Shown here piece by piece: positions 52,172 through 62,626 of a DNA stretch of 64,000 nucleotides; position 1 is the stretch's first letter, and every line of letters starts with the position of its first letter. The position numbers were made by a program, and so were the translations under genes. Under the pieces are notes generated by a model. The model did not search any database, was not told where the DNA came from, and saw only the letters and a program-made list of their open reading frames with translations. Source of the stretch: Phycisphaerae bacterium RAS1 (lineage in GTDB: Bacteria > Planctomycetota > Phycisphaerae > UBA1845 > Fen-1342); assembly GCA_007859745.1 (NCBI GenBank), contig SMLU01000002.1, forward strand, positions 550,942 through 614,941, read 5' to 3'.

Positions 52172-52340
52172 TTCGGAACCCGCCGCGCCAAGCGGCGGGG
52201 TGACGATCAGACGCGACCGATGCCACACAGGCAGAGGGATGTCAACCCGCCGCTTGGCGCGGCGGGTTCGGACAGATTGGCCCGCCGCGAACGCGGCGGC
52301 TTCGGACAAATCGGCCCGCCGAACTTGCCAGGATCGCTGG
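52172..52340. repeat. Paired REP-like palindromes with an extra unit
   Basis: Left palindrome GGAACCCGCCGCGCCAAGCG with GTGACGATC, a core of about 45 bp, then ATGTCAACCCGCCGCTTGGC and GGGTTCGGACAGATTGGCCC, followed by two looser GCCGCGAACGCGGCGG/TTCGGACAAATCGGCCC units. It is in the 396-bp gap upstream of the TSP3 gene; no other feature seen. Confidence 0.83.
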
Positions 52341-52445
52341 TCACACCCGTACGACGACGCCACGCAATCAGGCTAATCCGGCCGTTTGGCCGCCGTTTGT
52401 ATTGACGGCTCCTTCTGTCCGGTCCGGGCTCCTGCGAGGTGCGCC

Positions 52446-54038
52446 ATGTCGCTTCATTCTCTCCCGCAACCCACGTTCGCTGCGCGTTCCAAGAGTCTGC
52501 TTTGTTCGGTGTTGATCTGCACTGACTTGCTCCTCCCCAACGCCGGCTGCCCGGAAGAAGAGGAGCCGCCGCCCGACGTTCCCAACATCGAAGTCCCGGA
52601 AGTCCCGACTCCGTCCGACCACGGCGCCTGCTGCCTGCCCGACGGCCAGTGCACCGATGCCAGCAACCGTGCGGCGTGCGACACCCGCGGCGGATACTGG
52701 CACGGCATCGGAACGACGTGCGCCGAAGTGGTCCTCTGCAACAGCAGCGGGCCGTTCCGCGACCTCTGCGAGAACGCCCAGCCCTGCAGCGGCGAGGGGC
52801 CGTTCGTTTTCAATACGAACGAAGACCGCAGCAGCACGGAAGGCCTCATCCCGAGGTCCGGCGGCTGCCGGCGAATCTGGCTGGACGCGTTCGCCTGCTG
52901 GACGGCCGATCAGACCGGCCGCTACGCCATGGACACCTGCGGCGAGGAGAACGCGGTCAACACCTTGATCGCAGTCTACGACGGCTGCGCGTGCACGCTC
53001 ACGCTCGAGCGCATGCTGGCGTGCAATGACGACGGCGACGCCTGTGAGAGCGGCGGTTCGCGGCTGGAATTTGAAGCGGTCGCCGGAATGTCCTACATGC
53101 TGCACGCCGGCGAGCATTACAACGAGGTGGCGGGCGGCGCAGTCTACGTTCGCGTGACCTATCTCGGGCCAATCGAGTTGCCGGATGCGGATGAGGACGG
53201 CGTGCTCGACGCGGACGACAACTGCCCGGAGGCGGCAAACCCCAATCAGGCGGACAGCGACGATGACGGCGCGGGCGACGCATGCGATCCTGACGCGGAT
53301 TTCGACGGCGACGGCTTCATCAACGCGGACGACAACTGCCCGACCCTCGCCAACCCGGGCCAGGAAGACGCCGACGGGAACGGCGTCGGCGACGTCTGCG
53401 AACCGACCGCTGACAACGACGAGGACGGTGTGCCGAACGTTGAGGATAATTGCCCCAACACGTCGAACGAAGATCAGGCCGACGCGGACGACGACGGCGT
53501 CGGCGACGCCTGCGACGATTCCGACAATGACGGAATTCTCAGCATCGACGACAACTGTCCCGACACCGCCAACGAAGATCAGGCCGACGCCGATAGCGAC
53601 GGCATTGGCGACGCCTGCGAACCCGACTCCGACAACGACGGCACAATCGACGACGAAGATGGCTGCCCGGAAGATCCGGAAAAGACCGCGCCCGGCGCCT
53701 GCGGCTGCGGCAACCCGGACACGGACGCGAACAGCAACGGCACGCCCGACTGCACCGAAGAGCCGCCCGTCACGCTGCGCCTGACGTTCACGCTCGACGG
53801 CGAACCGGTCGTCTTAACCGTATTCGTGTGGGAAAACACTTGTCTGGAAGGCGAGGCGCGTTGCACGGGCATGAGCAGCTCGCTGGGCGTCTTTGAGTGC
53901 GCCGGCCTCACCGACGGGCTTCAAGTCTGTGTGTACGCCTACAACGAGCAGGTCAGTTCGGGAAGCCGGTCGTTCAACGTCAGCGACACCGACGGCGACG
54001 GCGTCGCCGAATTCGCGATCGACGTCGCGCCGGAGTAG
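52446..54038 (+). CDS. Thrombospondin type 3 repeat protein, probable lipoprotein
   Basis: 530 residues from ATG 52446. The N-terminus (SLLCSVLICTDLLLPNAGCPEEEE) has a weak lipobox. The body carries Cys-rich segments (CCLPDGQCTDASNRAACDTRGGYW), a domain with DLCENAQPCSGEGPFVFNTNED...ACWTADQTGRYAMDTCG, then about six calcium-binding TSP3 repeats (DEDGVLDADDNCPEAANPNQADSDDDGAGDACD) and a C-terminal beta domain (VTLRLTFTLDGEPVVLTVFVWE). Surface-exposed; ligand unknown. Confidence 0.88.
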   Translation: MSLHSLPQPTFAARSKSLLCSVLICTDLLLPNAGCPEEEEPPPDVPNIEVPEVPTPSDHGACCLPDGQCTDASNRAACDTRGGYWHGIGTTCAEVVLCNSSGPFRDLCENAQPCSGEGPFVFNTNEDRSSTEGLIPRSGGCRRIWLDAFACWTADQTGRYAMDTCGEENAVNTLIAVYDGCACTLTLERMLACNDDGDACESGGSRLEFEAVAGMSYMLHAGEHYNEVAGGAVYVRVTYLGPIELPDADEDGVLDADDNCPEAANPNQADSDDDGAGDACDPDADFDGDGFINADDNCPTLANPGQEDADGNGVGDVCEPTADNDEDGVPNVEDNCPNTSNEDQADADDDGVGDACDDSDNDGILSIDDNCPDTANEDQADADSDGIGDACEPDSDNDGTIDDEDGCPEDPEKTAPGACGCGNPDTDANSNGTPDCTEEPPVTLRLTFTLDGEPVVLTVFVWENTCLEGEARCTGMSSSLGVFECAGLTDGLQVCVYAYNEQVSSGSRSFNVSDTDGDGVAEFAIDVAPE

Positions 54039-54413: not shown

Positions 54414-57098
54414 ATGCGACGAATGATTACGCACTCGCACCTGGGCCGACTGGCGGCCGGGACCCTGCTCGTGGGCTCTATCGCGGCGGCGCGGCCCGTC
54501 CGGGCTGACTCGATCCGGCTGTACGATCAGCCGGTCGCGCTGCCGATGAACCGCTGCGAGCTCTCAACCGTTCAGCGAACCAGCCAGGCCGGCGCCGTCG
54601 AACTCGACGCCGCGGCGCTGCTCGACGGCGATCCGGCGACGGCGATCGAACTGAATGCCGCAACCGGGGAAGCGCTTGAGGTCATCTTCACCGGGGCTCC
54701 GCGCTGGCTGAACCGCATCTCGATCGACAGCGACGCCGCGGGCGTCACGGTCGATCTGCTCAACCTGGACGGCGCCCGGACGCCGGCCGCCAAGCGCGAC
54801 GCAGGCGACGGTCAGGCCGTCTGGATCGAGCTCGACGACGCGCGCGTGCGCGGCCTGAGACTCACGCCGGTCGGCGCGTCGCGCGTGCAGATTCGCGAGC
54901 TCGGCGCCTACTTTTCGCAGGTCGACCCGGACGCCGGCGAGCGCGGCAGCGGCGACGGGAACGAGCTGATGTGGGAAGCCGTCGAGAACTACTCCGGCTC
55001 GCCGCTGTTCAACACCATCGACGACGCCGAGGCGCTCGAGGACAAGCTGCCCAGCAGTTGGACGGTCAGCGGCTATCCCGACGGCAGCGCCTGGGAGCAG
55101 GATTTCAAGCGCACCGACCTCGGCGGCACCAACGGCAGCTACGCCGATGCCAACGACCTGGTCTATTTCTCCGGCCACGGCACCTCCGGCTTCGACAGCT
55201 TCTTCGGCTCCACGCAGCGCGGCGTCCTCTTCTCCGACAGCACCCACGACGACACGACGCTGCTGCCTGGCGACGCCAACGACGCGCTCGGCGACAGCAA
55301 CGGCGGCGAGATGGAGTGGCTCTGTTTCTCCGCCTGCCGCGTCCTGGACAACTCCACCGCCCGCGACAGTTGGGCCGACACGATGTTCGGCGCCCACCTG
55401 ATCTGCGGTTACGACACCGTCATGCTCGACGTCGAGAACGGCCGCGAGTTCGGCAAGCAGCTCAACGGCACGAGCATCTTCGACCCGGCCGAGACCATCA
55501 AAACCTCATGGTTCAACGCGGCCGAGGAGTATCACGGCGCCGGATACACCGCCGCCGTCATCGGCGAGACATCATCCATGGGCAGCGATTTCATCTGGGG
55601 CGAGGGCACGGTCGCCTCCGACCCCACGCCCGACAGCACCTACAGCTACTGGTCATTCGCAACCACCAGCGCCGGAGCGTCCGTAGCGGCGCCGGCCGAC
55701 GGCTACACGCCGCCGCTCGATCCGGTCGTGTTTGAGTCCGGCTCGCGGCAGGGCTTCCGCGTCGTCATCGACCGCGCCGAGCTGGATACGAGCCGCTCGC
55801 AGCCCATGATGCGCGTCTTCAACACCGTCCCGGCGATGGTCACGCCGGCCGACGTCCAGGCGATCGCGAGCACGCTCTGCCAGGCGACCGGCCGTTTCTG
55901 CGACTCGTCCGTCGGCCCGGATTCTGATATGGAAGAAATGAACGCCATCGACGGCGCGCTCGAACTTCGAGTTAAGACCGCGACCGGCGCGATCCACATC
56001 GAGGACACCAGCCGCTGGCTCGCGTGGCGCGACACCGCGCCCGAGCTTCCCGGCGAGCAGGACGCGGTGAACAACGCCAACGCGCTGCTCGAAACCTGGG
56101 AGATCCAGTCGCCCGGCGCCGTCGCCCAGCGCGTCGACTACGCCATCCAGGGCGAACGCACCAACGTCAACGGCGTCTGGCAGGACGTCCCCGAGACCAG
56201 CTTCGCCACCGCCATCCGCGTGATCTATCAGCGGCAGCTCGGCGCCGGCGGGGGATTCCCGGTCTTCGGGCCCGGCGGCTCGATGACCGTGGCCTTCGGC
56301 AACAACGGCCAGTTCCAGCGGCTCTTCCGCGGAGCGTGGCGCGAGGTGACGCCCGGCGAGATGGTTGAGACGATTCCGCTGGCCGACGCCCTCACCGCCC
56401 TGGCCAACCGTGGCGCCGACGCCCTGCTGACCGGCCTGAAGGTCGTCGCGTACGAGGTGACGATCAACTCGGTGACGCTCGGGTACTGGGAATTCGAAAG
56501 CTCGCGCACGCAAGACACGCTCCGCCCCGCGTTCATCCTGAGCGTGACGATCCGCGAAACGCCCGACGGCGTCTCCCCGCCGGTGTACGCCCAACACCGC
56601 GTCGCCATGTGGGCCGACGCACTGCCGCCGGTCGCGCAGATCAGCGGCGCGGCAGACGGAACCTGCGTCCCGGCCGGCTCGCTGGTGTGCGTGGCCGCCA
56701 ACGTCAGCGGCGGTGTGCCGCCATACCAGATTTCGTGGACCGACAGTGTGGACGGCCCGCTCGGCTCGACGCCGACGCTGTGCCACATGCTCAATGACGT
56801 GATCGACGCCCAGGGCCAGATTCGTTCTTCGCACACGATCCAGCTCCAGGTCCGCGACGCGCTGGGCAGCGTCAGCCACGCGCACGTGACGATCTGCCTG
56901 TCGCACCCCGGCGACATGAACTGCGACGGCGCCACGAACGTGCTGGACATCAATGCCTTCGTCCTCGCGCTGAGCGACCCAGCCGCGTACCAGGCCCAGT
57001 ACCCCGACTGCAACATCGCCAACGGCGACATCAACGGCGACGGCAACACGAACGTGCTGGATATCAACCCGATGGTGTCGCTGCTGTCGGGCGGCTGA
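54414..57098 (+). CDS. Secreted caspase/gingipain-like protein with dockerin-like tail
   Basis: 894 residues. A signal peptide (AAGTLLVGSIAAARPVRAD) is followed by a discoidin-like segment and then a region with the clan CD peptidase pattern: a His-Gly motif in VYFSGHGTSGFDSFFG and a Cys in EWLCFSACRVLDNS, as in gingipain, separase and CHAT proteins (I recall DUF6345 for this group; needs checking). A long C-terminal part holds an Ig-like PKD segment (VSGGVPPYQISWTD) and two dockerin-like loops (GDMNCDGATNVLDINAF, DINGDGNTNVLDINPM) ending SGG. Probably an extracellular cysteine protease; activity is not proven. Confidence 0.78.
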   Translation: MRRMITHSHLGRLAAGTLLVGSIAAARPVRADSIRLYDQPVALPMNRCELSTVQRTSQAGAVELDAAALLDGDPATAIELNAATGEALEVIFTGAPRWLNRISIDSDAAGVTVDLLNLDGARTPAAKRDAGDGQAVWIELDDARVRGLRLTPVGASRVQIRELGAYFSQVDPDAGERGSGDGNELMWEAVENYSGSPLFNTIDDAEALEDKLPSSWTVSGYPDGSAWEQDFKRTDLGGTNGSYADANDLVYFSGHGTSGFDSFFGSTQRGVLFSDSTHDDTTLLPGDANDALGDSNGGEMEWLCFSACRVLDNSTARDSWADTMFGAHLICGYDTVMLDVENGREFGKQLNGTSIFDPAETIKTSWFNAAEEYHGAGYTAAVIGETSSMGSDFIWGEGTVASDPTPDSTYSYWSFATTSAGASVAAPADGYTPPLDPVVFESGSRQGFRVVIDRAELDTSRSQPMMRVFNTVPAMVTPADVQAIASTLCQATGRFCDSSVGPDSDMEEMNAIDGALELRVKTATGAIHIEDTSRWLAWRDTAPELPGEQDAVNNANALLETWEIQSPGAVAQRVDYAIQGERTNVNGVWQDVPETSFATAIRVIYQRQLGAGGGFPVFGPGGSMTVAFGNNGQFQRLFRGAWREVTPGEMVETIPLADALTALANRGADALLTGLKVVAYEVTINSVTLGYWEFESSRTQDTLRPAFILSVTIRETPDGVSPPVYAQHRVAMWADALPPVAQISGAADGTCVPAGSLVCVAANVSGGVPPYQISWTDSVDGPLGSTPTLCHMLNDVIDAQGQIRSSHTIQLQVRDALGSVSHAHVTICLSHPGDMNCDGATNVLDINAFVLALSDPAAYQAQYPDCNIANGDINGDGNTNVLDINPMVSLLSGG

Positions 57099-57275: not shown

Positions 57276-57385
57276 CTTTCCGAACCCGCCGCGCCAAGCG
57301 GCGGGGTGACGATCGCGACCAAGCGGCGCCGCACAAGCCGAGGACGCCACCCCGCCGCTTGGCGCGGCGGGTTCGGACAGATGTG
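57276..57385. repeat. Paired REP-like palindromes
   Basis: TCCGAACCCGCCGCGCCAAG with GCGGCGGGGTGACGATC at the left, a core of about 30 bp, and ACCCCGCCGCTTGGCGCGGC with GGGTTCGGACAGATGTGCCC at the right. It ends 58 bp before the dehydrogenase start; the 344-bp gap has nothing else recognisable. Confidence 0.83.
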
Positions 57386-57442
57386 CCCGCCGCAGCCTTC
57401 GAATACACTCCCGGCCGTTCTCTTCACGCTATGCGAGGAACC

Positions 57443-58684
<1,242 letters not shown>

Positions 58685-58813: not shown

Positions 58814-62626
<3,813 letters not shown>

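Follow-up and report, generated by a model that had tools for sequence, protein, structure and literature searches.

A DUF6345 protein of Phycisphaerae bacterium RAS1 with a predicted clan CD-like core, an FTP-related companion region and a dockerin-fold tail

Domain organization of the DUF6345 protein

A stretch of 64,000 nucleotides of Phycisphaerae bacterium RAS1 (assembly GCA_007859745.1, contig SMLU01000002.1, positions 550,942 to 614,941), hereafter called the window, contains a gene for a protein of 894 amino acids that carries a domain of the Pfam family DUF6345. The genome to which the window belongs consists of 7 contigs with a total of 5.5 Mb and is labelled G000 in the comparisons. 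The open reading frame (ORF) was confirmed in the window sequence. From the N- to the C-terminus, the protein comprises a signal peptide, an N-terminal beta domain, the DUF6345 domain, a companion region related to FTP propeptides, an immunoglobulin (Ig)/SprB-like domain, and a tail with a dockerin fold (Table 1). The initial annotation described a secreted caspase/gingipain-like protein fused to a dockerin-like tail, based on a signal peptide, SGHG and CFSACR motifs, and a double calcium loop at the C-terminus. All of these elements were retrieved, namely a signal-peptide-like stretch read by eye at residues 1-31, the two motifs at residues 253-256 and 304-309, and two 12-residue loops within residues 833-894.

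A Pfam scan of residues 34-168, which make up the N-terminal domain, gave no match at E<=1. A SprB repeat was indicated at residues 762-778 (E=0.0012, below the Pfam cut-off), and sub-threshold SprB matches were present in the related proteins L020, L022 and L013 too. Two full-length paralogues are encoded elsewhere in the genome, with identities to the window protein of 45% (L002) and 42% (L003).

Table 1. Features of the DUF6345 gene and its direct neighbours (positions count from the first nucleotide of the window)
Feature	Positions	Strand	Basis or remark
ORF, 894 amino acids	54414-57098	+	Confirmed in window sequence
Signal-peptide-like N-terminus, residues 1-31, ending VRA/D (cleavage before D)	54414-54506	+	Read by eye
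N-terminal domain, residues 34-168, discoidin/F5-8C-like	54513-54917	+	By eye, unproven
DUF6345 domain, residues 191-414, clan CD-like	54984-55655	+	Pfam PF19872, hhalign
SGHG motif, residues 253-256	55170-55181	+	
His255, candidate catalytic histidine	55176-55178	+	Conservation and alignment with C25 and C14 histidine
CFSACR motif, residues 304-309, with Cys308, candidate nucleophile	55335-55337 (Cys308)	+	Conservation and alignment with C25 cysteine
Companion region, residues 444-736	55743-56621	+	FTP-related through homologues
Ig-like/SprB-like domain, residues ~740-830	56631-56903	+	Pfam SprB, sub-threshold
Dockerin-fold tail, residues 833-894, two 12-residue calcium loops, Cys837 and Cys866	56910-57095	+	AlphaFold2, Foldseek
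Thrombospondin-type-3 protein, upstream neighbour	52386-54038		
3-hydroxyacyl-CoA-dehydrogenase-like gene, downstream neighbour	57359-58684		Named from sequence only

The DUF6345 core and its candidate catalytic dyad

The core of the window protein is a member of DUF6345 by curated score (PF19872; E=6.8e-36; 124.2 bits versus a cut-off of 26.9). No paper in the literature searched, which left out most subscription papers, names this family. Members were found in 3 of 149 genomes of the phylum, in 12 of 392 of a bigger sample that overlaps the first, and in 10 of 198 genomes of the class, with four matches in the genome under study. It also occurs in Methanosarcina acetivorans, and a plasmid search returned one DUF6345 protein, from Deinococcus. 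No relatives were found in the viral contigs and phage records searched, and the DUF6345 profile had no matches among PDB sequences.

An alignment of 24 DUF6345 sequences was made, including the window protein and three near-identical rows from one genus (L263-L265). His255 is present in 23 of these 24 sequences, as is Cys308 (13 of 14 in a 14-row alignment), and the dyad is retained in some sequences that are only 16-19% identical to the window protein. Asp245 is conserved in 23 of the 24 rows, and both Asp248 and the glycine following the histidine in 22. The dyad is missing from a single row, a full-length paralogue from the same genome (C2:285174-287774; L003/L013), in which SGHG is replaced by VGFT and the cysteine by serine, while the architecture and the tail are retained. 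This paralogue is predicted to be a dead enzyme. In the second full-length paralogue (C1:2171130-2173790), the histidine and the cysteine are both present.

Probable relationship of the core with clan CD peptidases

The DUF6345 alignment was compared by hhalign with profiles of the peptidase families C25 (gingipains; 15 sequences) and C14 (caspases; 15 sequences), both built from genomes of the class. As E-values from such shallow profiles are untrustworthy, the DUF6345 columns were permuted 200 times. With 14 rows, the score was 33.0 against C14 (null maximum 20.4) and 23.8 against C25 (null maximum 21.4), neither being reached in any of the 200 permutations. The accepted relatives C25 and C14, used as a yardstick, scored 25.6 against each other, and a cohesin profile, used as a negative control, scored 9.2, a value reached by 80 of 200 permutations. 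With 24 rows, the score rose to 29.4 for C25 (null maximum 17.7) and was 30.2 for C14 (null maximum 19.2), again without a single permutation reaching it in either case. The C25 alignment covers 102 columns, running from GHG through FSAC and beyond, with histidine on histidine and cysteine on cysteine. The C14 alignment covers 76 columns, from NxY...L...DA through SGHG. Hence, the core resembles both families in the order of His-Gly and Cys, in register with C25, and in an N-terminal NxY...L...DA motif as in C14. One relative (L022) gave a weak direct Pfam match to the caspase family (E=0.21); the window protein itself had no Pfam match to C25 (PF01364) or C14 at E<=1, and thus scored below the C25 family cut-off. 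Together, the calibrated profile-profile comparison and the conservation of the dyad support a relationship of the DUF6345 core with clan CD, as the initial annotation had proposed.

The protease activity assumed in the initial annotation goes beyond this support. DUF6345 might have a caspase-type fold and yet serve in binding or as a structural element, or use the same dyad for other chemistry. The paralogue mentioned above, which keeps the architecture with an altered SGHG motif and a serine instead of the cysteine, is in line with this, as is the unknown function of the family in Pfam. Yet, the dyad persists in 23 of 24 sequences, even in highly divergent ones, and the core is accompanied by a propeptide-related domain, as would suit an enzyme whose activity has to be restrained. 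A non-protease role for DUF6345 is considered unlikely.

A companion region related to FTP propeptides

The initial annotation made no mention of an FTP-related domain. The companion region follows DUF6345 in the two paralogues of the same genome as well as in L021 and L011, precedes it in L020, L028 and the Deinococcus protein, and is encoded by a neighbouring ORF in the case of L010. A profile of nine companion rows (three from the genome under study, six from other genomes) was compared with a set of seven FTP propeptide regions. The score was 40.6, compared with a null maximum of 16.7 (none of 200 permutations), and the best-aligned stretch corresponded to residues ~600-657. The C25, C14, cohesin and DUF6345 profiles scored 9-14 against the same FTP set. 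The six rows from other genomes also scored 40.6 on their own (null maximum 16.9; none of 100 permutations). The three rows from the genome under study matched these six with a score of 82.6 over 227 columns (null maximum 23.7; none of 100). A hidden Markov model of these three rows recognized single rows unevenly in a six-sequence search (L010, 5e-8; L020, 0.022; L011, 0.5). The FTP signal thus comes from the rows of other genomes, to which the companion of the window protein is related, so that the FTP link of the latter is an indirect one. Neither the window protein nor seven related proteins had a Pfam match to FTP (PF07504) at E<=1, all scoring below the family cut-off, and a comparison of the companion region with PDB sequences gave a single, chance-like match (E=1.6).

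In proenzymes of the thermolysin and fungalysin type, the FTP domain acts as inhibitor or chaperone. The companion region may be an inhibitor or folding helper of DUF6345. In this respect, the window protein differs from the C25 homologue encoded in the same genome, as it has an FTP-related region and no match to Propeptide_C25.

A dockerin-fold tail with at least 150 places in the genome

AlphaFold2, run on eight sequences, modelled the tail with a predicted local distance difference test score (pLDDT) of 95 and a predicted template modelling score of 0.81. All 37 Foldseek matches of this model came from cellulosomal dockerin, cohesin-dockerin or scaffoldin entries, with a best E-value of 0.045 and none below 0.001. 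The best structural match had a Z-score of 8.9 and a deviation of 1.6 Angstrom over 58 residues. The Pfam family Dockerin_1 scored 18.6 bits on residues 832-884, under its curated cut-off of 22.9; the fold identity of the window tail rests on structure prediction and Foldseek. These predictions support a dockerin fold and agree with the dockerin-like tail described initially. The initial annotation treated the tail as a feature of this single protein; its presence there was confirmed, but it turned out to be a tag occurring at no fewer than 150 places in the genome. Indeed, the window tail matched at least 149 further places (E<=1.1e-16), a count based on the best 150 of 252 candidates, all of which matched when scored. 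Dockerin_1 matched at 42 places in the genome at E<=0.001, each with a score exceeding the cut-off, although four did so only when neighbours in the frame were included.

A set of 63 distinct tails was defined as modules starting 50-75 residues before the end of an ORF; the second copy of L102, for which the pattern failed, and L140 and L149, in which the module is not at the ORF end, fell outside it. The tails are 61-65 residues long in 62 of the 63 cases. Cysteine occupies position 5 in 62 tails and position 34 in 62 tails, the exception being a 55-residue tail from L134, in which both are absent. In the two duplicated 12-residue calcium loops with their Asp/Asn ligands, columns 2, 4, 6, 13, 40 and 51 are invariant in all 63 tails, and column 44 in 62. 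Similarly, the cysteine pair occurs in 40 of 40 tails from three other genomes. Among the 40 lowest-ranked matches of the genome under study, 36 show the pair when judged by pattern. Of these 40, 30 reach a stop codon within ten codons and eight continue into further protein; the remaining two are L250, which is truncated, and L233, which is ambiguous. The modules that continue into protein (L140, L149, L220, L226, L231, L235, L239, L240, L243 and L247) are followed by motifs of the YTRY, RRLVWD and NIRYVWD type, and inspection by eye indicated that they are perhaps RHS-repeat proteins. The tail of L250 (C2:299072-299536) ends after its first loop, and an adjoining ORF on the opposite strand (C2:299503-300285) is transposase-like by eye, an arrangement of sequences that suggests a tail hit by an insertion.

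Concerning the proteins that carry the tail, 34 of 62 ORFs passed a crude signal-peptide pattern, their start sites being uncurated. Nine tail-bearing proteins were scanned for their cargo. It included a gingipain homologue of family C25 (L145; C1:874960-879300), which also has Propeptide_C25 and a P-domain and ends in the same tail, a protease of the reprolysin-like M12 type, enzymes resembling alpha-amylase, GH15 and GH57, and a fourth DUF6345 protein. The tail profile matched 19 of 101 genomes of the class, and in each of four genomes of the family (G000, G223, G229 and G235) all 62 scored candidates were positive. No relatives of the tail were found in the viral contigs searched.

A further possibility is that DUF6345 itself acts as a sortase-like processing enzyme of the tail system. 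PorU, the sortase of the type IX secretion system (T9SS), is a relative of the gingipains, and the DUF6345 proteins described here bear the tail themselves. Such a role is nevertheless highly improbable, as the tail-rich genomes G223 and G229 (62 of 62 candidates) lack a DUF6345 match and as the family is present in just 10 of 198 genomes of the class.

Genome-specific residues at loop positions 10 and 11

Residues 10 and 11 of the dockerin loops are established determinants of specificity (PMC8063739). In the window tail, these positions read VL in both halves. The 63 tails of the genome under study were compared with 14, 14 and 12 tails from three other genera of the family. The tails of the former were first drawn from the best matches, and those of the latter were ranked by likeness to the profile of the former, a bias that works against finding a difference between genomes. 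For each column, the information on the genome of origin was calculated from 12 tails of each genome, and the labels were shuffled 200 times as a control. The most informative columns were 50, 12, 49 and 11 (1.74, 1.59, 1.52 and 1.41 bits), which represent positions 11 and 10 of both loops. The maximum over columns in the shuffles was 0.70 bits at 95%, the highest value being 0.90. At columns 11/12 and 49/50, the genome under study has V or I, followed by L; G229 has mostly G, followed by F; and G223 and G235 have F first (13 or 14 of 14), followed by mostly G, A or R in loop one and G, R, E or D in loop two. Hence, the four genomes display three dialects, one of which is shared by two genomes, and the positions are near-uniform within a genome. 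Also among the 40 lowest-ranked matches, VL or IL was present in 31 of 40 first and 31 of 35 second loops that could be parsed. When the genome under study was left out, a subset analysed without shuffles, columns 50 and 12 still ranked first and second, column 49 fourth and column 11 seventh, with columns 60, 8 and 53 among them.

From these four genomes, a coevolution driven by a receptor may be proposed. Alternatively, the genome-specific residues could reflect shared descent or the copying of tails within each lineage, rather than reading by a receptor. Descent or copying agrees with codon usage in the first part of the tail, where positions 1, 2, 6 and 7 have far more uniform codons than the protein bodies (Gly1, GGC in 37 of 39; Asp6, GAC in 37 of 39). 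When the whole tail is pooled, codon entropy resembles that of the bodies for the majority of residues, with lower values for Leu, Val and Ile; at positions 1, 2, 6, 7 and 14, it is clearly reduced. Moreover, the comparison concerns four genomes of one family, two of which have the same pattern, and columns 60, 8 and 53 intrude among the four contact columns once the genome under study is omitted. However, copying should mark all variable columns, whereas the four contact columns lead the four-genome test. The codons of the contact leucine and of the next aspartate also vary (Leu50, CTG 27, CTC 11 and TTG 1; Asp51, GAC 21 and GAT 18). Descent or copying is held to be rather unlikely as the explanation.

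Absence of a detectable cohesin and comparison with known dockerin systems

The dockerin-type attachment inferred in the initial annotation, if taken as an ordinary dockerin-cohesin pair, found no backing in a search of the genome. The cohesin family PF00963 had no match in this genome or in six other listed genomes of the family; the same search returned cohesins in 21 of 150 genomes of the class, among them G192, a tail-carrying member of the order. The best match of a ten-sequence planctomycete cohesin profile in the genome under study was one fragment (E=0.65). No scaffoldin was seen in a tail-rich cluster (C2:274-334 kb), where ORF ends were inspected without a domain scan. As neither profile detected a cohesin in the genome, the cohesin-bearing scaffold or anchor that characterizes a cellulosome or a planctosome was not found.

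Still, the partner of the tail might be an ordinary cohesin that is too divergent for these profiles. The tail has the fold of cellulosomal dockerins and behaves like them at positions 10 and 11, the search did recover cohesins elsewhere in the class, including the tail-carrying G192, and a cultured planctomycete relative is reported to have a two-cohesin scaffoldin (PMC11557425). The lack of cohesins in all seven listed genomes of the family, the fragment with E=0.65 as the only trace found by a planctomycete profile, and the lack of a scaffoldin at the ORF ends of the tail-rich cluster argue the other way and render a divergent cohesin doubtful.

Dockerins in planctomycetes are already known. 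For freshwater planctomycetes, a hypothetical cohesin-dockerin 'planctosome' has been put forward, involving dockerin-bearing secreted peptidases in a proposed surface complex with a cohesin-bearing anchor (PMC6461901). The present system shares the dockerin-bearing secreted peptidases; it differs in that no cohesin was found, that the tags occur at 150 places or more, and that the contact residues differ between genomes. With the type I dockerins of cellulosomes, the tails have in common the fold, the two calcium loops, and positions 10 and 11 that vary together between genomes. Unlike these, the tails have a conserved cysteine pair (62 of 63), the second member of which is absent from a dockerin of Ruminococcus (5m2o) that does possess the first; the genome lacks a cohesin detectable by the two profiles; and the cargo extends beyond cellulose degradation. 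The GC-type dockerin of NCBIfam (NF041540) is likewise a dockerin-like tail and matched three of seven tail-bearing proteins weakly (E 0.03-0.18; 12.2-14.7 bits), and the window protein not at all at E<=1. These scores are under the cut-off of 29 bits, and the tails represent a different variant. A cysteine-paired dockerin tag with genome-specific contact residues and no cohesin was not evident in the literature searched, which did not include most subscription papers or a review on non-cellulosomal dockerins.

Instead of docking, the tail could act as a folded sorting or export signal that a dedicated transport machinery reads and may also cleave, comparable to the C-terminal domain of T9SS substrates. 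Its mostly extreme C-terminal position and near-fixed length (61-65 residues in 62 of 63), its attachment to very different enzymes, and the lack of a detected cohesin would suit such a signal. In addition, the C25 homologue of this genome carries the dockerin-fold tail where gingipains have their C-terminal domain. However, the fold is that of a dockerin, and the contact residues are similar in both halves and shift together between genomes, a pattern to be anticipated if a partner binds to two equivalent sites. Further protein also follows the module in eight of the 40 lowest-ranked copies. A sorting signal is accordingly not regarded as probable.

Possible function of the DUF6345 protein and its tail

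The favoured interpretation, for and against which the chances are judged about equal, is that the window protein is an exported cysteine-protease-like enzyme with a clan CD-related core, an FTP-related companion, and a dockerin-fold tag that would dock to a receptor other than a recognizable cohesin. The protein would be exported via its signal peptide, and the companion domain would hold the enzyme inactive or assist in its folding. Like many other hydrolases that share this tag, the enzyme would be docked by its tail onto a receptor at the surface, whose binding depends on loop positions 10 and 11. Ending in a dockerin fold, such an enzyme would differ from known C25 and C14 systems.

Several observations weigh against this interpretation. 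As to the core, DUF6345 is a Pfam family without a described function, outside the peptidase families. The probabilities returned by hhalign were low (2-34%), and the C14 match was reduced to 30 columns without gap filtering and to 28 in the 24-row test. In a forced global alignment, the C14 cysteine was left unmatched and C25 yielded nothing useful. Single-sequence AlphaFold2 of residues 180-430 had a pLDDT of 31 and gave no usable model from which the distance within the dyad could be read. Furthermore, of the three full-length paralogues, one has lost the dyad, meaning that the scaffold can persist without it. As to the companion, the three rows of the genome under study scored 16.0 against FTP when taken alone, a value reached by 7 of 100 permutations and hence not above chance. 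As to the tail, the cohesin searches of the genome yielded no receptor. Confidence was lowered in particular because the FTP link is indirect and because the codons at the tail start are unusually uniform.

More broadly, and tentatively, with the balance leaning against it, the tail may be a genome-wide address label for a non-cohesin surface receptor. Label and receptor would coevolve through a lineage-specific two-residue code at positions 10 and 11, with the clan CD protease as one passenger. The uniform codons at the tail start reduced the confidence in this idea too, as did the dialect shared by two of the four genomes.

These comparisons link a family without a described function to clan CD through a concrete candidate dyad, for which the predicted dead paralogue provides a natural control. 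The very large set of dockerin-fold tags, with near-uniform contact positions per genome in genomes without a detectable cohesin, raises the testable question of what keeps secreted planctomycete enzymes on or outside the cell. A receptor, if found, could represent a new calcium-dependent protein coupling pair.

Genomic surroundings

A 28-bp palindromic repeat occurs in 9 copies in the window (<=3 mismatches), compared with 0 expected in shuffles. The copies form plus/minus pairs ~60 bp apart at 52177/52241, 54138/54199 and 57283/57346, in addition to three single copies, and two of the three pairs flank the DUF6345 gene. Further downstream, the frame of a dnaE2-like polymerase ORF (58814-62626, minus strand) remains open at three places where inserts made up of short hairpin repeats interrupt it. 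One of these inserts (60310-60868), located between the NTPase and finger domains of the polymerase, contains a 23S_rRNA_IVP ORF (PF05635; E=5.4e-34) at 60415-60786 in another frame.

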